This document shows, piece after piece, positions 2,552 to 31,289 of a stretch of DNA of 43,564 nucleotides; the first letter of the stretch is position 1, and each line of letters starts with the position of its first letter. The stretch comes from a virus. The DNA lies in the IMG/VR virus record IMGVR_UViG_3300025645_000142, positions 1-43,564 of that record; one strand, given 5' to 3'. The translations under genes were made by a program, and so were the position numbers. The notes below the pieces were generated by a model. It was not told the origin of the DNA, made no database searches, and saw nothing but the letters and a program-made list of their open reading frames with translations.

Positions 2552-2893
2552 ATGAGTTGTTTAAATACTTGTCATAGTTTCGGGTACATTCCTTTATGCG
2601 AAGATATATTAGAGTTCGCTCTACCTATATTTTACGCTAACAGAGCGATTGAAATTAATATAACTGGTAGAAGTAATAGGATATATAAATTAAGCGTTAC
2701 AGCTAACGAAAACGCAATAGTAAGCCTTATAGTTTCAGATTTGCCAAACGGTTACTTTTCGCAATATACAGTAGGCGAATATAAGATTTGGTTTGTTGAT
2801 GTAGTAAACGATGATGTTATTGAGTTTGAGGAAGTAGACAATTTTTGTGCAGTATTTAAATTTAAAGATATAAAATGGGCGGTTACAGAGTAA
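2552..2893 (+). CDS. hypothetical beta-rich protein upstream of the tail fibre
   Basis: 113 aa, not recognised. It is cysteine-containing at the N-terminus (MSCLNTC) and has alternating hydrophobic strands in the middle. It has its own promoter and overlaps the tail-fibre gene by 19 bases. The tight coupling to a long fibre gene suggests a structural partner, such as a fibre base or chaperone, but that is inference only. Confidence 0.75.
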   Translation: MSCLNTCHSFGYIPLCEDILEFALPIFYANRAIEINITGRSNRIYKLSVTANENAIVSLIVSDLPNGYFSQYTVGEYKIWFVDVVNDDVIEFEEVDNFCAVFKFKDIKWAVTE

Positions 2894-5361
2894 ATACAAG
2901 TGTGGATTCTTTGCCAATAGATGAATGGGAGGCTAATCCTTCTCTAAAAGATAGGACGTATCTTAATATATGGCGTTCTATTGCAGATATTCCACAACCT
3001 TATAAATCAAATGCTATTTACTTTGTACGTAATGAAGTGCAAGGCGAATACGACATGATGATTTTAGAAGCAAATGGAGTGGACTTTGTTACCTACAACC
3101 CTGTTTCTATTCAAAATGCAACGCAAGCATTAAGAGACGAAGTAGAAGGATTTAAAAATACTGTTGAAGCTGATAAAAATACGGTTGCAGCGGATAAGGC
3201 AACAACTTTAGGCTACAAAAACGCTGCGGAAACGGCTAAAACTGCGGCGGAATCTGCTAGGGATTTGGCGATTACAAATGCTGCTTTGGCTGGTAATACT
3301 CGGATACAAGATTGGGCTGCCCAAAGTTATGTGGCAGGGAGTCAGGTTGTGAAGGATGGTATTTGGTGGATATTACCTTCTGGCGTATCTGCGATTAGTA
3401 CGGATGTGCCTGGGGTGTCTTCAAAATGGGTACAGAGGGCAAAATATCTATGTATTGGAGGGTATAATCCTGTTACGAATACACCAGCTTTAAATGCAAC
3501 TCCTAATAGTGCATTGTTGGACGAAAGCTTTTACATGGTTGATACTACTGGTTGTGTGTCTTTTTTAGGGGATAATTTCGTGACTGGTTTTATGTTTCAA
3601 CGTGGAGATAGGCTAATAAAACGTGGGACTACTTGGATAGTTGATACTAACGATAGAGATATATTAGATGGCACTAGTATATCAGCAACATCTACCACAG
3701 CAGGCAAGTATTACCAATTTGACACAGGTGTAATAACTACGCTTTCGGGGTATTCGATATACAAATATCCTGTTTTGGATTCAAAAAAATATATCTTAAG
3801 TGGTGATATTATTGGTGCTTCGACTTGTCTTGCTGTTTTTTTCGATGCTAGTAATAATTTTCTTGGTTATCAGGATAGGGCAACGATTTCGGGACAGACT
3901 TACAAATTTTTACACCGTAAACTTACATTACCTTCAGGAACGGCATTTGTGGGCGTATCAATGAAGGATACTAATATTTTGTCGCTATCGCTCAAGGAAA
4001 TTACAAGTACTGTATCGGTAAGAGATACTGTATTAGCTAACACAAGCGAAATAGTAAGCATTAAAACTACTCAATCTGATAATTCGGCAAAGTTAACAGT
4101 ATTAAATTCTACTTTTTCTGCAATAGTTGATGAAGTTGGATTTACGAATTTTGACAATGAATATTATGATAAAACTACAGGGAATAAAGGCACAAATTCA
4201 TATTATTATTCAAGACTTTATCCTTATTCAAATGTAGATTTATTTATAACTACTAAATTTCAGGGTAGTAATTTAGCGGCTGCTGTTTTTTTTAACTCTA
4301 GTATGGTATATATAGGTAATCAGTTACCTAATTCAGTATCAGGGGTGACAATTTCACATGATTTTGTTAAGGTAGTAGCTCCAGTTGGTACTGCATTTAT
4401 AGGGGTTACATCTCACAAGTCATATTTAGCTACGCCTAAAATATCTAAATATGGGGATATACCTAGCTTGAAAGAGTTGGTGTCGAGTGTTTTTTCTTCG
4501 CCACTATACAATAAGATTATAGGTGCTGTGGGAGATTCCATTACTTACGGAGCTTCGGCGAGTTCTATTACTGATTTGTTTACGCCTTTAACTGGGTCTG
4601 CGTTGAAAAGTTATCCTTATTTTATCGCAAAAAGAACTGGGGCAAAATGGCATAATTACGGAATATCAGGGAGTACTTTAGGTGATATTTTTTGTGAAGG
4701 TGCTGATAGAAATGGATTCTCGAAGGCTTCTGGTAGATATACCTTAATGGCGGATGGTTTAAATTATATCTCTTTAATGTTTGGCACTAATGATGGCCCT
4801 TATGGTCAGAGAATGGTAACTGAAGCATGGGTGCAAGCTACTTATGGCACATATAAGAAGTTTCCAAGAACTAGCGATTTAAAAGATACGGCAGGATATA
4901 TGACTACGGCTGAATATAATGCTGCTTTTGCAAGGTCTGGGACTGTTGGCGGAGTGACTTATAGTAATACTCCGAACTGGGAACTTGATACTAAAACATA
5001 TATCGGAACGATAGACGATACGACCAATAAAACATGGTATGGAGCTTGGAATATTGTTTTGCCGTACTTGATTAATAAATATCCGACTGCGAAAATATTA
5101 ATATGGCTAAATCCGACTAATACTACGTTTGACGATGCTACGATTGCTATTTGTAAAAAGTGGGGAATTCCTTGGCTAGACTTGAGTGAAGACAATATGC
5201 CTTTATTATGGAGGAAAAGAACGGCTACGACTGGCTTAGTTGGTGGTGCGTCTCTGATTACTACTAGGAGAGCTACTTTCATTCCTGATGGTACGCACCC
5301 TAACGATGCAGGATACGAATTTTTGTCTACAATTATGGAAAATGCTTTGTTGAGGATTTGA
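2875..5361 (+). CDS. tail fibre/spike with C-terminal SGNH (GDSL) esterase domain
   Basis: 828 aa. An N-terminal virion-attachment-like part (1-85) leads into an Ala/Lys/Asp-rich helical stretch (about 85-140, repeated ADK/AAE units). Beta-rich middle domains follow, then an SGNH hydrolase at about 545-828. Catalytic blocks are visible: GDSITYG with Ser555, GISGST near 600, FGTND with Asn639, and PDGTHP with Asp805 and His808. Such domains deacetylate or de-esterify surface polysaccharide, so the protein probably binds and trims the host capsule or LPS glycan. Two middle segments (about 295-345 and 430-480) look related, both containing YPxxxxK/V...FFxxS...VGVS/GVT patterns, which suggests an internal duplication. 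Confidence 0.85.
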   Translation: MGGYRVNTSVDSLPIDEWEANPSLKDRTYLNIWRSIADIPQPYKSNAIYFVRNEVQGEYDMMILEANGVDFVTYNPVSIQNATQALRDEVEGFKNTVEADKNTVAADKATTLGYKNAAETAKTAAESARDLAITNAALAGNTRIQDWAAQSYVAGSQVVKDGIWWILPSGVSAISTDVPGVSSKWVQRAKYLCIGGYNPVTNTPALNATPNSALLDESFYMVDTTGCVSFLGDNFVTGFMFQRGDRLIKRGTTWIVDTNDRDILDGTSISATSTTAGKYYQFDTGVITTLSGYSIYKYPVLDSKKYILSGDIIGASTCLAVFFDASNNFLGYQDRATISGQTYKFLHRKLTLPSGTAFVGVSMKDTNILSLSLKEITSTVSVRDTVLANTSEIVSIKTTQSDNSAKLTVLNSTFSAIVDEVGFTNFDNEYYDKTTGNKGTNSYYYSRLYPYSNVDLFITTKFQGSNLAAAVFFNSSMVYIGNQLPNSVSGVTISHDFVKVVAPVGTAFIGVTSHKSYLATPKISKYGDIPSLKELVSSVFSSPLYNKIIGAVGDSITYGASASSITDLFTPLTGSALKSYPYFIAKRTGAKWHNYGISGSTLGDIFCEGADRNGFSKASGRYTLMADGLNYISLMFGTNDGPYGQRMVTEAWVQATYGTYKKFPRTSDLKDTAGYMTTAEYNAAFARSGTVGGVTYSNTPNWELDTKTYIGTIDDTTNKTWYGAWNIVLPYLINKYPTAKILIWLNPTNTTFDDATIAICKKWGIPWLDLSEDNMPLLWRKRTATTGLVGGASLITTRRATFIPDGTHPNDAGYEFLSTIMENALLRI

Positions 5362-5818: not shown

Positions 5819-6889
5819 ATGCAAGACGTATATAGATGTTTTGATAACTTAATAGGTGTTATTGGTTGCAATAATACTGCTACGCTATTGGTAAATGACT
5901 TATCTGGAATAAGTAACGAACTAATTGATAAGATAGCAGATGGCGACAATGAGACCTACTATGATGTGTTTGAAAAGGCGAGAAAATCGGCTATTAATAC
6001 TTTAAAAACTGACATTTTAGATGTACTATTAAGAGACACTAAAAGAGTTAGATTTAATGAGGTGTTATTTAAATCAGAACAAGCACGATTGATTAAGCCC
6101 ACAACAAGTGAATTAATTAATTATAACTACTTAGGTGGTTTGGTTACTACTGCATCAAGCCGATATGTTTTAATTAATGTTAATTCAATATCTGTATATG
6201 TAACAGAATCAGTAACGGTAAAGGCAAAAGTTTACGACTATGAATCAGAGGAATTTATCTTTGAAGGCGAAGACGTAACTTTAGAAGCAAACAAGGTAAA
6301 TCAAATAGAAATTGGCAAGTCTTTGTTATCTAACGATTCGAGAGCCGTTGCGGTTGTTTTAGAGTTACAAGGATTAGATACAGAATACAACGTTTCTAAA
6401 TTAAAACCTTATAGGTTTAAAGGTGAGAAAGTAGAATGTCAATGTGTTGATTCAATAGGCGAAGAAGTAGATTATTCGGAAGTTTTTCAAGCTTTAGATA
6501 TAGACGAAATAAATAACTTTGCTATTTATCCGATTGCGACAAACGACATAAACGATGCTATTAACTTTACAAGCATTGATTCTTATGTAAGCATTGATGT
6601 TGATATTGTTTGCAGTATGGAACAATTTATATGTGAAAATGCACAACGTATTGCACCTGCTTTAGTTTATTTAGTTGGGGCTAACATCTTAAAAACAAAG
6701 TTAGGCGGATACAGATGTAACAACTTTGCAAAAGGTAACTTAGAGTTCACGAAAGAAACAAAAGACGAATTATTATTAGAGTACAGAAGTATTTTAGATA
6801 AGATTGTACCTACTTTGCCTTTAAATGGTGATTCCATGTGTTGGGAATGCGATAAGGAATACGGCATATATTCAAGTTCTTTAATATGA
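5819..6889 (+). CDS. virion structural protein, probable neck/adaptor region
   Basis: 356 aa, mostly alpha/beta, with cysteine pairs near residues 202-204 (CQC) and 340-343 (CWEC). No catalytic motif is seen. Its place before two small neck-type genes and the tape measure suggests a connector or tail-sheath-free neck component. The family is not recognised with certainty. The end overlaps the next gene by 4 bases (ATGA). Confidence 0.7.
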   Translation: MQDVYRCFDNLIGVIGCNNTATLLVNDLSGISNELIDKIADGDNETYYDVFEKARKSAINTLKTDILDVLLRDTKRVRFNEVLFKSEQARLIKPTTSELINYNYLGGLVTTASSRYVLINVNSISVYVTESVTVKAKVYDYESEEFIFEGEDVTLEANKVNQIEIGKSLLSNDSRAVAVVLELQGLDTEYNVSKLKPYRFKGEKVECQCVDSIGEEVDYSEVFQALDIDEINNFAIYPIATNDINDAINFTSIDSYVSIDVDIVCSMEQFICENAQRIAPALVYLVGANILKTKLGGYRCNNFAKGNLEFTKETKDELLLEYRSILDKIVPTLPLNGDSMCWECDKEYGIYSSSLI

Positions 6890-7356: not shown

Positions 7357-7796
7357 ATATAGTTGAAATTATAAACGATAGATTCGAGGAACTATACACT
7401 AACATAGACGCACGTTATGGATGGTGTAAACAAATAATAGTGGGTGACGAAGGGTTAAAGGTGGTTTCATTTGATGATTCCGAGCCTAAAGTTTTTGTTC
7501 CTGACGACTTGTATAATATTCAGCTTGCACACATTTTAAATACTGGTAGTTTAGATAAAAGCAACCCTTTTAATAACAGTTTTATATGTGAAGTAGAATT
7601 AGTTGTTATAAGCCCAAAGGTTAAATTTTACCACGTAATAAACGTTTTAAATGAGTTAGGAGTACAATGCAACTCGTTTGATTTAAAGACAAGGAGCGTG
7701 CTTAGAAACACGTTAAACGTACAAGACGATTACCCAGAGACAGAAGCGTACATAATTAAATATCAATTTACATCTAAACTAAACGAGTTTGAATAA
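7353..7796 (+). CDS. probable tail terminator/minor tail protein
   Basis: 147 aa with mixed alpha/beta pattern. Position after a gp10-like gene and before the chaperone and tape measure matches the tail-terminator slot of siphophages. No diagnostic motif is visible, so the call rests on gene order and size. Its last eight bases overlap the next frame, which starts with TTG. Confidence 0.45.
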   Translation: MNIVEIINDRFEELYTNIDARYGWCKQIIVGDEGLKVVSFDDSEPKVFVPDDLYNIQLAHILNTGSLDKSNPFNNSFICEVELVVISPKVKFYHVINVLNELGVQCNSFDLKTRSVLRNTLNVQDDYPETEAYIIKYQFTSKLNEFE

Positions 7797-8481
7797 AAGA
7801 TTTGAAGAAGAAACGGAAAAGGAACTTATATTTGAATGTGATAATATAAAGTACTACCAATTTATAAATGGAGGTACACCGATGTATTATGCACGTTTTA
7901 AGCAATTCCAAGAAACGATGCGTAAGCATGAGGAATGGAGAATTAACGATTCTGTTCTAAGTGAATATATTGATATGGTTTCGTCTTTAACGCAAAATAA
8001 AGGATTAGATTCGGAACGTAGAATAGCGGAGATTGCAAGAGTTACCGAAATGATTAAATGGAGACGTGAGCAGAGTAATGACTTGCAACTAATATATGAA
8101 CTTGCATCTATTTGGTATTTTGACGAAAGCGAAGACCCAAGCAAGTACGATTACAGCCATGCACAAGAAAAAATTAAGTCGTGGATGAAGTCAAACGAAT
8201 GTACAATTGAAGGGGTAAAATATAATTCTCTTTTAAGTTTTTTTTTGCAAACACCTCTAAACAGATACATAAACTTTCGGGATTTGTCGGAAAGTGGTAC
8301 GCTGAAATATTTACAGAAAATGACCGAGACGATGTTAAGCCACTCGATGCACAATTCTTTGCTATTGAGCGAGAAAGAGAAAGGCGAGAGTATGGGCTTA
8401 AATATCAGCTCGTTGATGGAGACATATCAAAACTTGAATTACTTAATCGGTTTAGAATTGGAGAATATTTCGACTACTTGA
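7789..8481 (+). CDS. probable tail assembly chaperone, zero-frame product
   Basis: The open frame begins with TTG at 7789, overlapping the previous gene by 8 bases; an in-frame ATG at 7882 (MYYARF), preceded by GGAGG, is the alternative start. The first ~150 residues look like normal protein. After the T9 run at 8238-8246, the zero frame turns Leu/Ser-rich and out of character, while the -1 frame becomes charged and protein-like up to 8549. This gene lies directly before the tape measure, where siphophage tail chaperones (lambda G/GT type) use a -1 frameshift. The true product is therefore probably residues 1-152 joined to the -1 extension. Confidence 0.65.
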   Translation: MNKRFEEETEKELIFECDNIKYYQFINGGTPMYYARFKQFQETMRKHEEWRINDSVLSEYIDMVSSLTQNKGLDSERRIAEIARVTEMIKWRREQSNDLQLIYELASIWYFDESEDPSKYDYSHAQEKIKSWMKSNECTIEGVKYNSLLSFFLQTPLNRYINFRDLSESGTLKYLQKMTETMLSHSMHNSLLLSEKEKGESMGLNISSLMETYQNLNYLIGLELENISTT

Positions 8482-8549
8482 CAGAAAAGATAAAAGAAAG
8501 CGAAGAAAGAAAGCGAGCGAGTGAAGATATAAAAAAAGGGGGTAAATAG
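8226..8549 (+). CDS. -1 frame extension of the tail chaperone
   Basis: Open in the -1 frame relative to the 7789 gene, from just after a TAA at 8223 to TAG at 8547. Past the T9 run it reads FANTSKQIHKLSG, then WYAEIFTENDRDD, DAQFFAIERERERREYGLKY and a charged tail ending DIKKGGK. This is typical phage protein composition and has no good start codon of its own, so it must be reached from the upstream frame. It ends 68 bases before the tape-measure start. Either ribosomal slippage or a missed T in the homopolymer would connect it. Confidence 0.65.
   Translation, partial: FSFKFFFANTSKQIHKLSGFVGKWYAEIFTENDRDDVKPLDAQFFAIERERERREYGLKYQLVDGDISKLELLNRFRIGEYFDYLTEKIKESEERKRASEDIKKGGK
8238..8247 (+). 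promoter_or_regulatory. putative -1 slippery site (T9 then G)
   Basis: Zero-frame codons read AGT TTT TTT TTG, so T TTT TTG fits the X XXY YYZ slippery heptamer. Slippage by -1 enters the 8226-8549 frame. I did not identify a strong downstream pseudoknot. A 9- versus 10-base homopolymer count error is the rival explanation. Confidence 0.55.
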
Positions 8550-8617: not shown

Positions 8618-11600
8618 ATGGAAGATATTAAGGTTAAGATTATAGCCGAAAGTCAGGTAGACAATGCCAAGGTAGACTTGGGCGAACTTCTTACTATTAC
8701 AAAAGGGCTGATTGACGCTACTAATCAGCTTAATATTACTAATCAAAAAGTTGCTGCGGAATCAAAAAAGGGTAGCACGGAACAGATAGGGTTAATAAAT
8801 AAGTTACAATCTGAAATACAGAACTTAACACGACTTAGAAACGAATCTGATAGCGTTTCGAAGATTGAATCTTACAATTCTAAGCTAAGAGAGCAACAGG
8901 CTGAATTAAATAAACTAACTACAACCCAAGCGAGGTCAAACGTTCTAACTAAAGAACAATCTGATAAGTTAGATTCACTTACTGCAACTACAAAAAAAAC
9001 AAGTTCCGCTTTTTCAAATATGGCGGTTACCTTGGGGGCGTTCTTTGCTGCTGACAGGTTTATTGACATGGCAAAAGGTGCATTTAACTTAGCCATAACG
9101 ACAGATAGTTTAGATGTAGCATTAAAAAACGTTTCAGCAAGTACAAAAGAGTATAATCAAAGTATTAATTTCTTAAATGACATCACTAATCGTTATGGGC
9201 AACAGCTTGTAAACTTAGAAGGTCAATATACACAGTTTATAGCATCAAGTAAGAGTTCTAATTTAACCTTAGTAGAGAGGAACAAAATATTTGAATCGGT
9301 AATTGCGGCAGGTTCTTCTTTGAAGCTATCCAACGACAAGATAGAAGCATCTTTAAGGGCTGTTTCTCAAATGTTTTCAAAAGGAAATGTAGCGGCAGAA
9401 GAGTTGAGAGGGCAACTTGGCGAAGCTTTGCCTGGTGCTTTTGGTATTATGGCAAAGGCTATGGGCGTTTCTGAAACTGGATTAAACAAGCTATTAGAAC
9501 AAGGGAAAGTATTAGCAGCTGATGTATTGCCTAAATTTGCCAACGAGTTAAATAACCTATACGGAGCAACGGCACAAAACAACGTTAATACGTGGACTGG
9601 TGCGTCAAATAGAGCATACAACTCTATGACTGCATGGATAGTTAAGCAAAATGAAAGTTTAGGCATAAGCGACAAAATGGCAAAAATGGCTAATTATGTT
9701 GCAGATAACTTTGAAAAGATAGTAAACGTTGTAAAGTCTGCTATTACTGTTTTTGCTTTATATACTGCAAATAAGATAAGAGCGAATATAGTAGACCAAG
9801 TTAAATTAATAAACCTTGGTAGAGAGATATTAGCAAAACAAGCGGCAACTGCAACTACAATAGAATTAACAGTAGCCGAAAATGCAGCGGCAGCAGCAGC
9901 TACAAGATTTAATGCGGCTTTGGCTGCTTCACCTTGGGGATTACTAATGGTGGCAGGTGTTGCAGCTATTACAATGCTTTTAAATTATAAGGATGCACAA
10001 GATAACTTAATAGAAGCACAAGGTAAACTAAATAAGTTAGTGGCTGATGCTTTACCTGATTTGGTATTAGAAAAGAACGAATTTAATAGTTTAGCTAAGT
10101 CGGTATTAGATACCAACTTGCAAAAAGACGAAAGGATTAAAAAGTTAAACATACTAAAAGACAAATTTCCAGAGCAACTAAAAGGCATTAATAGCTTATC
10201 AGATGCAGAAAGCAACTTAGGTAAAGTAATTAGACTAACTAATCAAGATTTTGTTACAAGGGCTAAGTTATTAGAAAACGAGGTAAAAATTAAGTATAAT
10301 AATGAAATAGCAACAAAGGCTATTAAAGAACAAATATTGTTAGAAAACCAATTAGCAAATGCAAGTACTAATAAGACTTACATGGTGACTGGTACGGCAG
10401 GATATGTGCAAGCATACGATTCAGAAGCGGAGAAGATACAGAAGTTAATAGATAAGAAAAAGTCTTTAGTTATAAACACCCAAAAGGCAAATGAAGATTT
10501 AGCTGCATATTCAGAAAAGCTAACTAAAACTGTTAATTACAATTTAGATAGCCAACTTAAAAAGGTTGAGGTGAAAGAGGAAGGTCAAACCAAGAAAGAA
10601 AAAGCTGAACAAGATAAAAGAGACAAACAATTAGCTAAGGCACTTTTAAAGAATGAGAAAGATATAGAGAAACACTATGAAAACCAATTAAAGATTGCAG
10701 ATAAATCTTTTCGTTCATATTTAAAAGCAATAGAATCTGCTGACGACAATGAAGTAAAAGCAAAAGAGAAACTTTATGCACAACTAAGAAAAGAACTTGA
10801 TGCTCAGTTTTTGTATATAGAATCTTCTAATAAGCTATCTGAAATAAGAAAGGCAAAAAGTTTAGATGAGATTGAAGCTATTGAACAAAAATATGCAAAA
10901 AGGGCATTAGATAGATTAATAAAAAACACGGAGGATAGATTAAGGGTAAAAGAGAGCGAGTATGCAAGATTAAAAAGTGCTGGCATATTAGACTTAGAAT
11001 CAGAATATAGATTAAAAGAAGAAATTTCTGAGTTAAAAGAAGATTTAAACAAGCTGTTAACTAAGTTAAATGACGATAGGATAAAAGACGCATCAGATAC
11101 TTTAAAAGAAGAATCTGATATTAAAAATCAAACTGTAATATTAGAGAATAGAACTTTAGGAGAATTAAAGAAAGCTAGGAATGCTTTTAGAAGCAACGAA
11201 AAGTTATCACAGCAATTATTCGGGAAAGAATTATCGCAATTAAATGCAGATGAATTAAAAGCCTTATCTAAAGCGGTAAAAGACAATCAAGAGTTAATTG
11301 CTAAGTATATAGAATCAGCTTTAAATTTTGTTTCAGATTCATTAGATAAGCTATCATCTATGTTAAATGAAAAACTATCTAACTCAAGTAGTTTAGCGGA
11401 GAAAGAATCATTAGTAGTAGGCGGTAAAATAACAGACGCTTTTAGTTCTAACGTAAAAGGTGCGGCAGCTTTAATGAAAGGTGATTTAGTGGGTGCGGCT
11501 CAAGGTCTTTTTGGCTATTACAAAAACATTTGGGATGTAACAATAGGATTTAATAAAACATTAGATAATATTAAGCGTGAGGACTTTTTGCAGAAGTTTG

Positions 11601-13024
11601 CAGAATCATTTGGGTTAATATCTCAATATTCAGACGCAATAAAAGAATCGTTTGATGGCTTGGTAAACTCTTCTGCTGAATTAAATGATAATACTTTATC
11701 TGGTGCGGAACTTATTATTAAAACTCAAATTGATGCGGCAAATAAGATAAAAGAAAAGTATAATCTATCAGTAAGCGAGGAAAACGACTACCACAGTAAA
11801 GTAATTAGTAATATACAATCTCAATTAGCAGCTGAAATTGATGCAATTAATAGTAAGTATGATTATTTAAATCTAAAAGCAAACTTAAGGTTTACGGCTG
11901 ATTCGTTAGCAATTAGTGAATTAATGAACCAAGATCTGCTATCTTATGTAACAAACGAAGATAGCAAGGCAAGCCTTAATATAGAGTATTTAAATAAAAG
12001 GAAATTTATATATGATACCTACGCAAGCCAGATAAAGCCTATTACAGAAGACATGAGCGAAGCGGAAGTTGCTGGGATAAATGCAGCTATTAAAGCACGT
12101 GACGAGCAATTAGCTAGGGTTGAAAGTTGGCTTACTACTGAATTAGAATTTATATTTTCAAGTGAAGACCAAAAGAGAAAAACTTATTCTGAAACAGATG
12201 CAATAATTCAAAAAGGGAAAGACGATTTAAATGAATTATCTATAAAATATACGGCAGAAGAATTAGCTAGAAATACTTCAAGAAACTTAGAATTACAAAC
12301 GGCTGAAACAAACAAAAACTTATCTTTAGAAGCTGAGAATAAAAGGTATAATGATGTCTTAGTATTATTAGCAACTGAAAAAGATGCAGCTATTGCGGAT
12401 TCATTCAATAAGCTAAAAGACGTAATTACGAATGGATATGCAGAAATGCAAGCCGCTGCAAAAAAAGCCTATGATGATGGGTTAATAACAGCGGCAGAGT
12501 TTGAGGCTGCGATGCAAAGAATAATCTATTTAAAATCTTTAATTGATGGAAGTAAATCGGATGTTGAAATACGAGTAGGTGAAAAGCTAAAAGACAAAGG
12601 AATAAACTTACCTGGTTTTCACTCAGGTACTGAATTTGTGCAAGGCGAAAAGGGTTACGACAAAATACTTGCTAAGATTGAATATGGCGAAGGTATTATA
12701 AATGCACCGTTAAACGCTAAAAAAATAAAAGCAGGGCTAACGAATGAAAGTGCAATCAACTACGCTATTAATTACAAGTCACTTTTAAACGATATGCCAA
12801 GTCTAACGATTAAGCCAAGTATTGCAGGTAAAATAGAAGAGCGAAACGCTATGCAATACCTTTTGAATATGAATGTTAATCCAGTAGTAGACAAACTAGA
12901 TAACTTAGAAAAAGTATTAAGTAAACTACCTATTCAGACATTTAACTTAGATGAAAACGGATTAACAAGATACGAGCAAAAAGGAAACTCTATAACAATA
13001 TTTAAATCTAAAAGGCTAAAATAA
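8618..13024 (+). CDS. tape measure protein
   Basis: 1,468 aa, the longest gene, setting tail length and probably helping DNA entry. The N-terminal domain (about 130-320) carries the tape-measure signature seen in MFSKGNVAAEELRGQLGEA and LPGAFGIMAKAMGVSE, both typical of the TIGR02675-type tape-measure N-terminus. Hydrophobic segments occur near 365-395 and 430-455. Long Lys/Glu-rich coiled-coil stretches follow (about 630-860 and 1220-1330). By the usual 0.15 nm per residue rule the tail would be about 220 nm (inference). The stop overlaps the next start as TAATG. Confidence 0.92.
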   Translation: MEDIKVKIIAESQVDNAKVDLGELLTITKGLIDATNQLNITNQKVAAESKKGSTEQIGLINKLQSEIQNLTRLRNESDSVSKIESYNSKLREQQAELNKLTTTQARSNVLTKEQSDKLDSLTATTKKTSSAFSNMAVTLGAFFAADRFIDMAKGAFNLAITTDSLDVALKNVSASTKEYNQSINFLNDITNRYGQQLVNLEGQYTQFIASSKSSNLTLVERNKIFESVIAAGSSLKLSNDKIEASLRAVSQMFSKGNVAAEELRGQLGEALPGAFGIMAKAMGVSETGLNKLLEQGKVLAADVLPKFANELNNLYGATAQNNVNTWTGASNRAYNSMTAWIVKQNESLGISDKMAKMANYVADNFEKIVNVVKSAITVFALYTANKIRANIVDQVKLINLGREILAKQAATATTIELTVAENAAAAAATRFNAALAASPWGLLMVAGVAAITMLLNYKDAQDNLIEAQGKLNKLVADALPDLVLEKNEFNSLAKSVLDTNLQKDERIKKLNILKDKFPEQLKGINSLSDAESNLGKVIRLTNQDFVTRAKLLENEVKIKYNNEIATKAIKEQILLENQLANASTNKTYMVTGTAGYVQAYDSEAEKIQKLIDKKKSLVINTQKANEDLAAYSEKLTKTVNYNLDSQLKKVEVKEEGQTKKEKAEQDKRDKQLAKALLKNEKDIEKHYENQLKIADKSFRSYLKAIESADDNEVKAKEKLYAQLRKELDAQFLYIESSNKLSEIRKAKSLDEIEAIEQKYAKRALDRLIKNTEDRLRVKESEYARLKSAGILDLESEYRLKEEISELKEDLNKLLTKLNDDRIKDASDTLKEESDIKNQTVILENRTLGELKKARNAFRSNEKLSQQLFGKELSQLNADELKALSKAVKDNQELIAKYIESALNFVSDSLDKLSSMLNEKLSNSSSLAEKESLVVGGKITDAFSSNVKGAAALMKGDLVGAAQGLFGYYKNIWDVTIGFNKTLDNIKREDFLQKFAESFGLISQYSDAIKESFDGLVNSSAELNDNTLSGAELIIKTQIDAANKIKEKYNLSVSEENDYHSKVISNIQSQLAAEIDAINSKYDYLNLKANLRFTADSLAISELMNQDLLSYVTNEDSKASLNIEYLNKRKFIYDTYASQIKPITEDMSEAEVAGINAAIKARDEQLARVESWLTTELEFIFSSEDQKRKTYSETDAIIQKGKDDLNELSIKYTAEELARNTSRNLELQTAETNKNLSLEAENKRYNDVLVLLATEKDAAIADSFNKLKDVITNGYAEMQAAAKKAYDDGLITAAEFEAAMQRIIYLKSLIDGSKSDVEIRVGEKLKDKGINLPGFHSGTEFVQGEKGYDKILAKIEYGEGIINAPLNAKKIKAGLTNESAINYAINYKSLLNDMPSLTIKPSIAGKIEERNAMQYLLNMNVNPVVDKLDNLEKVLSKLPIQTFNLDENGLTRYEQKGNSITIFKSKRLK

Positions 13025-16965: not shown

Positions 16966-17053
16966 GCATAGGTAACAGCCTCTAATTGTTACAAATCTTC
17001 AAAAATTGGTGCAATCAGCACAAATCTATTTTCATAATCATAATTTTATTGTA

Positions 17054-17671
17054 ATGAATATTATCGACAAAATAGTCGTAAAGGATGGAATAAATGCAGA
17101 TGTAACTATAGACTTAGGGTATTTTACCAATCAAGTTAGTGAGGTTAATTCCGCAGTATCTTCATTATCGGCAAGTCGTGGGGTGATTAATTATACTATT
17201 AGCGGAGGTAAGCCTACATTTAACTTCACGCCTTTCGGGAATAATGAATTATGGGTTTATGTAGATGGATTAGGCACTAAGGCAAACGGAGTTACGAATA
17301 GTAAACAACCGACACCTTTTTTATTCGCACCTGATAGTATAGGAAATAAAGATTTAGATATACCTTCAGCTACTGGTATTTCTAAAGATATAATTATAAA
17401 AAGGTATAGTAATAATAATGCTTATACTGTATATATTGATAATAGAACATTGCCAGAAAATGAGGTTTATACAATAATAAATGCAAGTAGCCCTTTTGGA
17501 ATATCAGATACAATAAATAGTGTTGAATTAGTATTGGTACATGATGGACAGTTTATTGGTTATCTTTCTGAATATGGAAATATAACTTTAGAGGTAAAAG
17601 ATGGTAATTTTGGGAATCATTCTTATAGTATTAGATTAATGAGAGTAGGCGATAATATTTATATACTATGA
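17054..17671 (+). CDS. tail appendage protein, tandem copy 1
   Basis: 205 aa from the ATG at 17054 (MNIIDKIVVKDGINAD). A longer frame opens at GTG 17006, but this ATG aligns with the start of the next gene's product (MNIIEKVIIKDGVNAD), so it is preferred. The two proteins share phrases throughout: LGYFT, SRG, NNELWVYVDG/NNELWIYVDG, ANG-TN-KQP, and the identical end LMRVGDNIYIL. Beta-rich and probably structural. The stop overlaps the next ATG as ATGA. Confidence 0.7.
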   Translation: MNIIDKIVVKDGINADVTIDLGYFTNQVSEVNSAVSSLSASRGVINYTISGGKPTFNFTPFGNNELWVYVDGLGTKANGVTNSKQPTPFLFAPDSIGNKDLDIPSATGISKDIIIKRYSNNNAYTVYIDNRTLPENEVYTIINASSPFGISDTINSVELVLVHDGQFIGYLSEYGNITLEVKDGNFGNHSYSIRLMRVGDNIYIL

Positions 17672-18306
17672 ACATTATAGAAAAAGTAATAATAAAAGAT
17701 GGCGTTAATGCTGATATTGTAATTGCATTAGGGTATTTTACTGGTCAGGTTGAAGAAATTAATGATTCTTTATATTCTATTCCTTCAAGTCGTGGCATAG
17801 CTAGTTATGAGATTATAGCAGGTAAGCCTACTTTTACATTTGAGCAAAAAAATAACAATGAATTATGGATTTATGTAGATGGTATTGGGTTCAAAGCTAA
17901 TGGAATAACAAACACTAAACAGCCTTCACCGTACTATTTTGCACCAACAAGCGACGGTAATCAGATTGTAACAATACCTAATGATTCAGAAACGGCTAGA
18001 CATATAATTATAAAACAATTTCGTGGGGGTACTGATTCTGTTGTGGAGTTAAAGATAAATATGAGCTTATTCCCAGAAAATGAGATTTTCAAGGTAACGA
18101 ATGCAAGTAACCCTAGTGATGGTGTAGAAGAGTCTACAGCTATATCTATTGATATTTTACAAATACCAGACGAAACTAATTATAAGTTTTTAGGATATGG
18201 CGGAGGTAGTGATGGTATGGCGTTATGGGAATTTAGTAGTTTAACAACTGAAAACGTAGGAAGTGTTGAATTAATGAGAGTAGGCGATAATATTTATATT
18301 TTATAA
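17668..18306 (+). CDS. tail appendage protein, tandem copy 2
   Basis: 212 aa, a diverged tandem duplicate of the preceding gene, with the same start and end sequences but a different loop region (about 115-185). Divergence is largest in the part that would be exposed, as expected of receptor-binding or decoration proteins, though that role is inferred. It overlaps the next gene by one base. Confidence 0.7.
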   Translation: MNIIEKVIIKDGVNADIVIALGYFTGQVEEINDSLYSIPSSRGIASYEIIAGKPTFTFEQKNNNELWIYVDGIGFKANGITNTKQPSPYYFAPTSDGNQIVTIPNDSETARHIIIKQFRGGTDSVVELKINMSLFPENEIFKVTNASNPSDGVEESTAISIDILQIPDETNYKFLGYGGGSDGMALWEFSSLTTENVGSVELMRVGDNIYIL

Positions 18307-18821
18307 TGCTGTATTACGAGATTACACCTTTTGAAGAAGTTACCTTCGAGTTTGAAAACAGTTTCGACCTCGTAGATTTTACTTGCATTAAGCCTGATAT
18401 AATAGCAGGTGGCGAAGAAGGTAGTAATTATCTTTTAGTTTCTGCTATTGGCATACCTGATGGCGTTAAAATATATTCAAGCACAGGAGAGTATGGGAAA
18501 GTAAAAGATTATAAAGCGTTAATAAAGTTAAATGATGCTTTAGTATATAACCAGTTAATAAGCGTTAGAATAGATACAGAACTATGTAAAACAGAATCAT
18601 GTATCTATACGGTTGGCAAATCTTATGCAGGTTATTACGGTTGTGTTTTAGCTGAAAATCATTTGCCAGAAGGAACATTAACAGGTGAGTTTATTTGCGT
18701 TGGAATAGACCTTTATAACTTAGAATTTGATGGATTAGGAAACGAAAGGTTAGGGAGTTTAATTCAAGAGGATTGTATATATTGTGGCGGTGTTTTACCT
18801 AATTGTGAAGAAGTACCTTAA
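18306..18821 (+). CDS. cysteine-rich tail protein, tandem copy 1
   Basis: 171 aa, related to the N-terminal half of the next product. Shared elements are C-xx-P-xII near 23-28, EGSNY/FxLV, the C-xTESC/C-NTRSC pair, and an end motif QEDCIYCGGVLPNC that is identical in both. Eight or so cysteines in paired spacing suggest metal binding or disulphides. It may form an adhesin with its partner. Overlaps the next gene as TAATG. Confidence 0.7.
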   Translation: MLYYEITPFEEVTFEFENSFDLVDFTCIKPDIIAGGEEGSNYLLVSAIGIPDGVKIYSSTGEYGKVKDYKALIKLNDALVYNQLISVRIDTELCKTESCIYTVGKSYAGYYGCVLAENHLPEGTLTGEFICVGIDLYNLEFDGLGNERLGSLIQEDCIYCGGVLPNCEEVP

Positions 18822-19702
18822 TGAGTGAAATACATACATTAACATTAGATTTAGAAGTTTATTCGATTGAATTAGCTAAATGCGTCACGCCTAAAATTAT
18901 AGGTTTTGCCACGGAAGGCTCAAACTTTATTTTAGTAGGAGCGAGCGGAGCTGATGGAATTGAAGTGCGTTTAAATACTGGTGAAGTAGGCACAATAGAA
19001 AACGGAGTTTGTTATATAGAATTAATAGAGCCTTTAGCTTTTGGCGATGAAGTTTGGGCTGAGATTGTTACAGATAACTGTAATACAAGGTCATGTTCTG
19101 TTTATGCTTCGAGAATAGCTAATTATTGCATAGAAAGTGCATATAATAGACCAGCAGGCCAATTAAACGGCAGATTAGTTTGTGTTGAATCTGACTTTTA
19201 TAGACAAGTTTACGATGGAGATGGGGGCGTTTATGCAGGAGTATTAGCACAAGAAGACTGTATCTATTGCGGTGGTGTATTACCTAACTGCATAGAAGAA
19301 CCACCAAGTGAAATTACGACATTTTATAATATTGTAAGTTGTTCAAATGGTTTGACTTACCAAACAGAAACGGTATTAAGTACTTTGAATCAAAGAGTTT
19401 CAGATTCAAGCGGAAATAATTATTACTATAACGGAACAACTCAAACAAGTGCGGTCGCTTATGTTGGTGCTGTTAGTTTGGTAGGTTCTGAAACAGGATG
19501 CCCGACTATTGACAGAAGTTGTAAGACATATACACTTACTGGATTAGTTGGAGGTGGCACGTATAGCTATGTAGATTGTTCGGATGGCATAACTTATGGG
19601 CCATATAGTTTACCACAAGGATTACAAACAACTAGATGTTGTAGAGCAATATCTTATTATAATTGTTCGCAGTCGATAGGTAGTAATTGTGGCACATATT
19701 AA
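18821..19702 (+). CDS. cysteine-rich tail protein, tandem copy 2 with extra C-terminal domains
   Basis: 293 aa. Residues about 1-163 are a diverged copy of the preceding protein and end with the same QEDCIYCGGVLPNC motif. The remaining ~130 residues add two short cysteine-bearing repeats, each with a C-S/D-N/G-G-L/I-T-Y phrase (SCSNGLTYQTE and DCSDGITYGPY), followed by a Cys/Tyr/Ser-rich end. The added repeats look like a separate carbohydrate- or receptor-contact module, which is inference. It ends the tail operon; the next gene has a 54-base AT-rich gap. Confidence 0.7.
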   Translation: MSEIHTLTLDLEVYSIELAKCVTPKIIGFATEGSNFILVGASGADGIEVRLNTGEVGTIENGVCYIELIEPLAFGDEVWAEIVTDNCNTRSCSVYASRIANYCIESAYNRPAGQLNGRLVCVESDFYRQVYDGDGGVYAGVLAQEDCIYCGGVLPNCIEEPPSEITTFYNIVSCSNGLTYQTETVLSTLNQRVSDSSGNNYYYNGTTQTSAVAYVGAVSLVGSETGCPTIDRSCKTYTLTGLVGGGTYSYVDCSDGITYGPYSLPQGLQTTRCCRAISYYNCSQSIGSNCGTY

Positions 19703-29081: not shown

Positions 29082-31289
29082 TTAAAATAGTTCTAATTGA
29101 TTTAATTTACTTTCAGCATTTTTTAAGTTTTTTACTGATAGTTCGAAATAGCTTTCTTTTAACTCAACACCTAAATACCTTCTATTATTTTCTACTGAAA
29201 CGTACCCTTCAGTGCCTATTCCATTAAAAGGGCTAAATACAAGGTCATTTGGATTTGTATATAATTCTAATAACCTTTTAATTGGTTCTTTTTGAGTTGG
29301 TGTCATGTGCTTTTCATCTTGTTGTGCTTTTGCCTCACGTACGCTTAATACGTCTCCTGCATCAATCTCTCCTTCAAGCCATACGGGTTCAGCTATCTTA
29401 CACCAATATTCAAAAGGTATTCCGTTATTTTGGTGGTTTACTGGTTCTAAATTGTCTCCTAATTTTTTAAATGTTAATAGATAGTCAGGGAAACCCATTC
29501 TATTAATAGTTGAATCTCTTTTTGTTGTAGCGTGCAATAATTGCATATTTTTAGTTCTTTGTGCAATAATTTTTGGGTCTTTCCAAATTACTACTTCTGC
29601 ATGGAATAGCCATCCGTATTTTCTCATAGCAGTAATTAAATCACCTCTAAAATCAATTATTTCTAAAAATCCGTCCTTGCCTTTTGATGTAGATAACTGC
29701 GTACAGTGCATAGATAGTAAACGTCCCTCTTTTGTTATCCTTAATAATTCAGGTATCATATACTCAAAGTGTTTAAAGAAATCTTTATAGCTTGAGTTAT
29801 TGCTCAAATCACGTGAATCATTAGAGAACATATATAAATCTGAGAATGGTGGCGAGAAAAAAGTGTAGTCTATCGAGCTAGTTTTAATATGTTTTATATA
29901 TTCTACGCTATCACCGTTTATTAATTTCCAATTAGTTCCTGATTCTTCTGTAAATGACGTATTTATATCTTTATCATTTTTTTGAACCTCATTCATTGCT
30001 ATTTGCATTTGTTTTTGCATATTTTCGAATTTTGATTGTTTTTCTTTTATTGATTGTATTACATTGCCCATTGTTTCAACTATCACTAATATTATATTTA
30101 CTTTATTCTTTTGCCCAAATCTCCAACTACGTCTTATAGCTTGATATAATCCTTCAAAACTAAAGTCAAAAGATAAAAATATTTGATTGTTGCAATTTTG
30201 AAAGTTTAATCCAAATTGTGCTATTTTAGTTTTTGTTACTAAAACCCTAAAATCACCACTTGCAAAGCCTAGTAATTTACTTTCTTTTTGTTCATTCTTA
30301 TCTTTCCCACTTACTGATATTGCATCTGGGATTAAATCACATATTTCTTTTTGTTCATCATCTGTTTTAACCCAAATTATAAAAGTTTCATTTGAGTTAT
30401 TAACTATTTTGGCTACTTCAATACAACGCTCATTTTGAGTTACACGTAATTCAGAATAAAAGTCGGTAGCACTAACTGAAATATCATTAAACAATTTCCC
30501 GTTTTCTTTTTTATCTACCTCTATTTCTATCTCTTTTATATTTAACTCAGGCAAAATGTAACTATCGCCATTAAATCCAATATCAGAAGGGTTTAATAAC
30601 ATAATTGACCAACTACTCACCCAAGACCAGAAGTCTTTTGTAGCGTGTTTTTTTAGTCTCCATTTACTTATTGTGTGGTCTTTGTTAAAGGCATCATTTA
30701 TGAAAAAAATTGAAACCATTTCTTTTGACCTCATAACGTTTAGAAACTCGGCATGATTACCTAATTCAATGTGGTCATTTGGTGAAGGTGTGGCAGTACA
30801 AGCTAATTTAAAAGGAGTATCTTTAAATTTTCTAAGTATTAATTCTTTTGTAGCTCCATTGTAGTTTTTTAAACAGCTTGATTCATCTAAGACTATACAC
30901 CCAAAAATAGAAGCATCTATATTTGATAACTGGTCATAATTTGTTATATAAATACCGTACCTATCTTTATCTATGTTTTTATTATGTCTTTCAACATTAA
31001 TATTAAATTTTGCTCCTTCTTTTATTGTTTGTCCTGCTACAGCTAAAGGTGCAAGTATTAAGCTTGGCTTATTTGTTTTTTTTGAAGTTTGATGTGCAAA
31101 CTCTAATTGTTGAAAAGTTTTACCAAGCCCACAATCTTCGAATAATGCGTATCGACCTGCTTTTAGTGCTTTTTTTACACAGAACTTTTGAAAAGGAGCT
31201 AATAAATGGTTTAGTTCTGATTCTTCTATATCAAACCCTGATTCTATAAAAGTTTTTTGTTTAGTTTTTAAAAATTCTTCGTATGTCAT
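29082..31289 (-). CDS. SNF2-type helicase fused to beta-class DNA methyltransferase
   Basis: 735 aa. The helicase half has EDCGLGKT (51-58, Walker A), LDESS (134-138), TATPSP (165-170) and QAIRRSWRFGQ (383-393), the SNF2/superfamily 2 set. The methyltransferase half has FFSPPF (477-482, motif IV; SPP[YF] is typical of N4-cytosine enzymes such as PvuII), HMTPTQKEP (661-669, motif X) and FSPFNGIGTEG (685-695, motif I, cofactor site). The order IV then X/I is the beta class. It most likely modifies and remodels phage DNA to resist restriction, as P1 DarB does with the reverse domain order, but a replication role is possible. No cognate endonuclease is nearby. Confidence 0.88.
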   Translation of the reverse strand: MTYEEFLKTKQKTFIESGFDIEESELNHLLAPFQKFCVKKALKAGRYALFEDCGLGKTFQQLEFAHQTSKKTNKPSLILAPLAVAGQTIKEGAKFNINVERHNKNIDKDRYGIYITNYDQLSNIDASIFGCIVLDESSCLKNYNGATKELILRKFKDTPFKLACTATPSPNDHIELGNHAEFLNVMRSKEMVSIFFINDAFNKDHTISKWRLKKHATKDFWSWVSSWSIMLLNPSDIGFNGDSYILPELNIKEIEIEVDKKENGKLFNDISVSATDFYSELRVTQNERCIEVAKIVNNSNETFIIWVKTDDEQKEICDLIPDAISVSGKDKNEQKESKLLGFASGDFRVLVTKTKIAQFGLNFQNCNNQIFLSFDFSFEGLYQAIRRSWRFGQKNKVNIILVIVETMGNVIQSIKEKQSKFENMQKQMQIAMNEVQKNDKDINTSFTEESGTNWKLINGDSVEYIKHIKTSSIDYTFFSPPFSDLYMFSNDSRDLSNNSSYKDFFKHFEYMIPELLRITKEGRLLSMHCTQLSTSKGKDGFLEIIDFRGDLITAMRKYGWLFHAEVVIWKDPKIIAQRTKNMQLLHATTKRDSTINRMGFPDYLLTFKKLGDNLEPVNHQNNGIPFEYWCKIAEPVWLEGEIDAGDVLSVREAKAQQDEKHMTPTQKEPIKRLLELYTNPNDLVFSPFNGIGTEGYVSVENNRRYLGVELKESYFELSVKNLKNAESKLNQLELF

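Follow-up and report, generated by a model that had tools for sequence, protein, structure and literature searches.

Probable -1 recoding at a nine-T tract before the tape measure gene in an uncatalogued family of phage proteins

In the lambda G/GT system, two products with a common N-terminus are made from one start by a -1 shift. The slippery sequence is G GGA AAG, and the zero frame ends 6 codons further on, stop included. The E/E+E' products of P2 (Peduoviridae) also share a start and arise by a -1 shift, in this case on T TTT TTG, from a locus directly before the tape measure gene (PMC3091744, PMC3931495), and no 3' RNA hairpin has been reported in P2-like phages (PMC3091744). The P2 run consists of six Ts, and its zero frame ends 7 codons past the heptamer, stop included. 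Frameshifts of the G/GT type are a conserved feature even of phages with little sequence similarity (PMC5009743). Trans-frame products can also arise during transcription: in vivo, a run of 9 As or Ts is enough for efficient slippage by bacterial RNA polymerase, whose hybrid spans 9-10 bp, as at the nine-base homopolymer of dnaX (PMC5009743).

We analyzed a stretch of viral DNA of 43,564 nucleotides (IMG/VR record IMGVR_UViG_3300025645_000142; hereafter the window), in which a candidate gene of this kind, on the plus strand, adjoins the tape measure gene. Its zero frame (7789-8481) runs from a TTG start to a TGA at 8479-8481 and encodes 230 aa, the putative short form of a chaperone; the TTG start and the N-terminus line up in alignment with the ATG start of a related locus, L008. 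The N-terminal domain that would be common to both products (7789-8247) was delimited by alignments and carries a conserved ...FDxxExPxxY...EKIKxW motif. As a sequence-only reading of this DNA had stated, a run of nine Ts (T9) lies at 8238-8246 and provides a valid in-phase T TTT TTG; this heptamer occupies 8241-8247, with its G at 8247, and the zero-frame codons across the run are AGT TTT TTT TTG CAA. The -1 frame is open over 8226-8549, after a TAA at 8223-8225 and up to a TAG at 8547-8549. The extension proper (8247-8549) comprises 100 codons past the heptamer without a usable start codon and, joined to the N-terminal domain, gives a predicted fusion of ~253 aa. The zero frame itself continues past the slip site for 77 sense codons and a stop, so that its tail overlaps the extension at 8248-8481, and 8482-8549 would be read in the -1 frame alone. 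A family motif, LTxYEYxxxL, aligns with RIGEYFDYL of the window, which spans the zero-frame stop. The tape measure gene follows after 68 bases (8618-13024, plus strand, ATG at 8618; PHROG tail length tape measure, E = 6.3e-46). The open -1 frame of ~100 codons, the long continuation of the zero frame and the G/GT location, all proposed in that reading, are thus confirmed.

The window genes just upstream, at 6886 and 7353, had no clear family match that would mark either as the major tail protein gene, which precedes the chaperone gene in lambda G/GT-type systems. The gene order from 1136 to 26025 is unusual, with terminase, tail genes including the tape measure gene, portal (20724) and a possible capsid gene (24829), the last without a family match. 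Between the terminase and the tail genes, 2875-5361 encodes a protein of 828 aa with a C-terminal GDSL lipase/acylhydrolase domain (Pfam). Pairs of similar proteins at 17006-17671 and 17668-18306, and at 18306-18821 and 18821-19702, are by eye probably tandem duplications. On the minus strand, 29082-31289 encodes 735 aa in which a SNF2/ResIII-type helicase is joined to an N6/N4 DNA methylase (Pfam).

Single-protein searches found no relative; the first relatives were reached via the tape measure protein, and then through profiles of the shared N-terminal domain. L008 carries relatives of both frames (zero-frame tail, 39% identity over 76 aa; -1 frame, 34% over 92 aa), and its T9-G occupies the position equivalent to that in the window. 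Three other loci (L006, L007 and L009; ~25% identical) display the same two-frame layout, but on A AAA AAA. The profile search yielded 215 relatives in viral contigs, of which the best 80 were examined, and 11 relatives in bacterial assemblies, all labelled Bacteroidota and including Dysgonomonas sp. 216, D. alginatilytica and Proteiniphilum sp. X52. As far as hosts are known, most or all phages of this family infect Bacteroidota. Two samplings of nearly 400 genomes each, one from the order and one from the phylum of Dysgonomonas, provided no further case. In other phages of flavobacterial type (L002-L004, L010, L015-L021), related tape measure genes are preceded by a single ORF of ~200 aa in which no -1 extension was seen. 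We considered these ORFs as in-frame fusion versions of the gene, and profile comparison showed no relation; two groups among them are mutually related (hhalign probability 97), but not detectably to the window's family.

Enough sequence was available for 94 loci, the viral relatives being limited to the best 80 of 215. All but two of these loci had both frames and an in-phase heptamer; the 92 that did, two Dysgonomonas isolates (L117 and L121) among them, formed 50 clusters at 80% amino acid identity; the search of related phages for the two-frame layout that the sequence-only reading had proposed therefore found it. Across the 50 clusters, zero-frame tails extend 38-81 codons past the slip (median 54) and -1 extensions 84-112 codons. 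An ORF of at least 500 aa begins within about 420 bases downstream in 44 of 50 clusters, with tape measure identity confirmed for that of the window. In many loci (e.g. L006, L007, L009, L028, L037 and L062), a -1 stop lies directly before the run, which pins the position of the junction. The two exceptions to the layout are one sequence, a Proteiniphilum sp. X52 prophage (L124/L076). Its run (~5373-5382 in L124) is T10, and the extension is in one frame with the shared domain, so that the DNA encodes the fusion directly; the +1 frame preserves the usual zero-type tail in full. This T10 is either a natural variant or a homopolymer error, and a search with the L124 -1 domain returned the T10 case again and nothing else.

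We then asked how far each frame is constrained when the other is held fixed. When synonymous codons of the window were redrawn with the zero-frame protein fixed, the -1 frame stayed open in 0 of 500 draws; with the -1 protein fixed, the zero frame stayed open in 0.2%. Across clusters, the zero-frame tail was conserved with the -1 protein fixed (median z 6.0, or 5.7 with -1 alignment columns), and the -1 frame was conserved with the zero-frame protein fixed (median z 4.7, or 4.1 with columns likewise swapped). The unused +1 frame also gave z values of 3.2-4.0 here, since a double constraint on DNA conserves all of its frames. The -1 values are thus modestly above the control and by themselves no proof, and the -1 frame is better supported by the lack of stops and by the conservation beyond the zero-frame stop. 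Stops in the overlaps numbered 0 in the zero and -1 frames compared with 11.3 per 100 codons in the +1 frame, where a stop-free zero/-1 overlap had also served as the criterion for accepting a locus (92 of 94 accepted). Conservation in the -1 frame runs up to and beyond the zero-frame stop. The zero-frame tail has a family consensus (q.PL.eLIPfL..se.DL..Ys....kln..HLe.Ls..lS) and is 33-39% identical between clades in a five-member alignment. Between the window and L008, conservation follows the zero frame in the first part of the overlap (TPLNRxIxF..LS..G...YL.K..ET.LSHSM) and the -1 frame in the later part (LVDGDI..L..L...RI..Y.D.L..KI.E.EE). Judged from sequence, the overlap of 38-81 codons is dual-coding in every cluster.

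The initial proposal of a -1 frameshift in a tail chaperone gene accordingly stands as to a shift on T9 at the G/GT position, but not as to a zero frame that loses its protein-like character after the run, given the similarity of the tail to L008 and its consensus. The same proposal had taken a conserved zero-frame end in homologues as evidence against frameshifting; such an end is indeed seen, but with the -1 frame conserved alongside it, the frameshift is not refuted.

The slippery sequence varies between clades while the layout is constant. By cluster (n = 50), the heptamers are TTTTTTG (29), TTTTTTT (9), TTTTTTA (6), TTTTTTC (4) and AAAAAAA (2). The tract reaches at least nine bases in 42 of 50 clusters (T9 in 39, A9 in 2 and T10 in 1); the other 8 have T6, T7 or T8 and retain the two-frame layout, and the heptamer of the T6 and T7 clades is in phase though the run is shorter than nine. 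On a tree of the shared domain, run type requires seven changes, with T6, T7 and A9 forming one clade each. The probability of a slippery heptamer, calculated from amino acids and codon usage, has a median of 0.15 per cluster and a product of 10^-43 over 50 clusters, a product that overstates significance because the clusters are related. At sites encoding F-F, the preceding codon ends in T in 37 of 40 clusters compared with 20.7 expected (P about 5e-11, uncorrected for relatedness), and the remaining three attain nine Ts by another route. Runs of at least nine Ts number 74 in 967 kb of loci, about 60 of which are these junction sites. Comparison of downstream RNA structure with shuffled sequences gave no signal (mean z 0.0 and -0.4), and an upstream SD-like motif occurred in 13 of 50 clusters, not consistently.

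From these data, programmed -1 recoding at the window's T9 is almost certain, and three other accounts of the two frames can be weighed against it. The sequence-only reading had asked that a homopolymer error be excluded, namely a true run of 10 Ts and a single-frame gene. Homopolymers are error-prone, and L124/L076 does combine T10 with a single-frame fusion; however, 50 diverged clusters from many metagenomes agree with the Dysgonomonas isolates L117 and L121, the runs of the T6 and T7 clades are short, and an error cannot yield a conserved zero-tail protein. The two-frame layout of the homologues rules out a missing T; sequence comparison refutes error as a general explanation, and for the window we give it hardly any credence. 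Scarcely more credible is a separate overlapping -1 gene with its own start, even though overlaps are common among phage genes and, in ten clusters, the short open segment ahead of the run contains a start codon. In the window, the first ATG, GTG or TTG of the -1 ORF is a TTG 77 codons into its 100; a start codon falls within the first 20 codons past the slip in 1 of 50 clusters; and conservation in the -1 frame starts at the run itself (FFxxAxxxxxxLFxxxRxRFxxLF). It is also improbable, though somewhat less so, that the fusion alone matters and that the overlap produces the zero-frame tail incidentally and without harm. The tails of lambda and P2, merely 6-7 codons long, would fit that account, whereas here the tail is open in 50 of 50 clusters, is conserved across clades and with the -1 protein fixed, and is predicted to be helical.

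The remaining choice concerns the machine that slips. In the window the ribosome is likely to slip on T TTT TTG, and we regard a ribosomal event there as the better-supported reading over a transcriptional one; this identification is unsettled because the tract is kept at nine Ts and not at six plus one. Alternatively, RNA polymerase might slip on T9 (template A9) and generate mRNAs with 10 Us from which the extension is read unshifted, giving the same two proteins. We consider this unlikely for the window phage but worth serious attention. T9 is kept though the heptamer needs the last six Ts, as the excess of preceding T-ending codons indicates; one clade has A9; most long T-runs of the loci are junction sites; nine bases is the length of efficient bacterial RNA polymerase slippage (PMC5009743); and the zero-type tail of L124 could be reached by an mRNA losing one U, but not by a -1 ribosomal slip. 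However, the T6, T7 and T8 clades retain the layout, the phage G/GT cases described in the cited literature are ribosomal, and tandem in-phase heptamers (T TTT TTT and then T TTT TTG) could also select for the extra T. Open-access titles and abstracts contained no report of transcriptional slippage as a source of tail chaperones. We therefore hold that ribosomal slip is the common mechanism, with polymerase slippage as a strong rival in T9 members, the window phage included. Still less likely is that RNA polymerase sets the chaperone ratio in most members and the ribosome does so in sister clades whose runs are shorter, the machine having been switched with both endings functional.

The shared N-terminal domain (loci L038-L127) defines a large phage protein family that is uncatalogued in Pfam, PHROGs and NCBIfam. 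Neither this domain, the zero-frame tail nor the -1 extension had a convincing match in Pfam, PHROGs, NCBIfam, PDB or BFVD, and no sequence or fold relation to a known tail chaperone was found; these chaperones are a very diverse group, which such a relation does not strictly define. Against annotated phages, the window, L037 and L062 had no relative, and L028 one weak partial match (E = 0.06). AlphaFold predicted the zero-frame form with a mean pLDDT of 77, with a tail of two long helices (168-196 and 200-229) and an N-terminal domain whose ten-residue blocks ranged from 57 to 95, central helices being best; the -1 extension, modelled alone and apart from the shared domain, was all-helical (pLDDT 81). 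Structure searches with both models found nothing. The product is nevertheless probably a tail assembly chaperone, because of the gene position and the G/GT pattern. Within the open-access literature, we found no paper that describes frameshifted tail chaperones from phages of Bacteroidota.

We propose that one gene yields two proteins that begin alike and end differently. Most readings would keep the zero frame and produce a 230-aa chaperone with a helical tail, while a minority would shift -1 on T9, most simply by a tandem ribosomal slip on U UUU UUG, and produce a ~253-aa form whose last 100 residues differ and are likewise helical. By analogy with gpG/gpGT of lambda and E/E+E' of P2, the shared domain may bind the tape measure protein and the extended form may recruit the tail tube protein, the slip rate setting the ratio of forms. 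Within this scheme we infer the slip in cells, its rate, the minority form and the chaperone role. Taken as a whole, G/GT-like -1 recoding that yields a 230-aa chaperone and a ~253-aa extended form is a highly probable reading of the sequences. A large uncatalogued chaperone family, from Bacteroidota phages as far as hosts are known, would thereby join the frameshift story, and a gene caller without a frameshift model would report the short form alone. The conserved nine-base tract makes a ribosomal or transcriptional origin of the chaperone ratio open to direct test.

Compared with known systems, the proposed scheme is of the lambda G/GT type: two products from one start, with a common N-terminus and a -1 shift, from a gene directly before the tape measure gene, in which an XXXYYYZ heptamer ends the shared domain and the -1 extension lacks its own start. 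The window differs from lambda in its T-run and its long dual-coding overlap. It resembles P2 in the heptamer T TTT TTG, the direction of the shift, the common start and the position (PMC3091744, PMC3931495), but has nine Ts and a conserved 77-codon zero-frame tail, and no sequence relation was detected. With bacterial transcriptional slippage on 9 As or Ts, the window's T9 shares the nine-base homopolymer and the trans-frame products (PMC5009743), although some clades of its family have shorter tracts. The zero-frame tail, of 77 codons in the window and 38-81 in the family compared with 6-7 in lambda and P2, is a point of departure, though a short tail does not strictly define the type: a long overlap with both ends conserved is unlike either phage and implies a role for the unshifted product's own tail.
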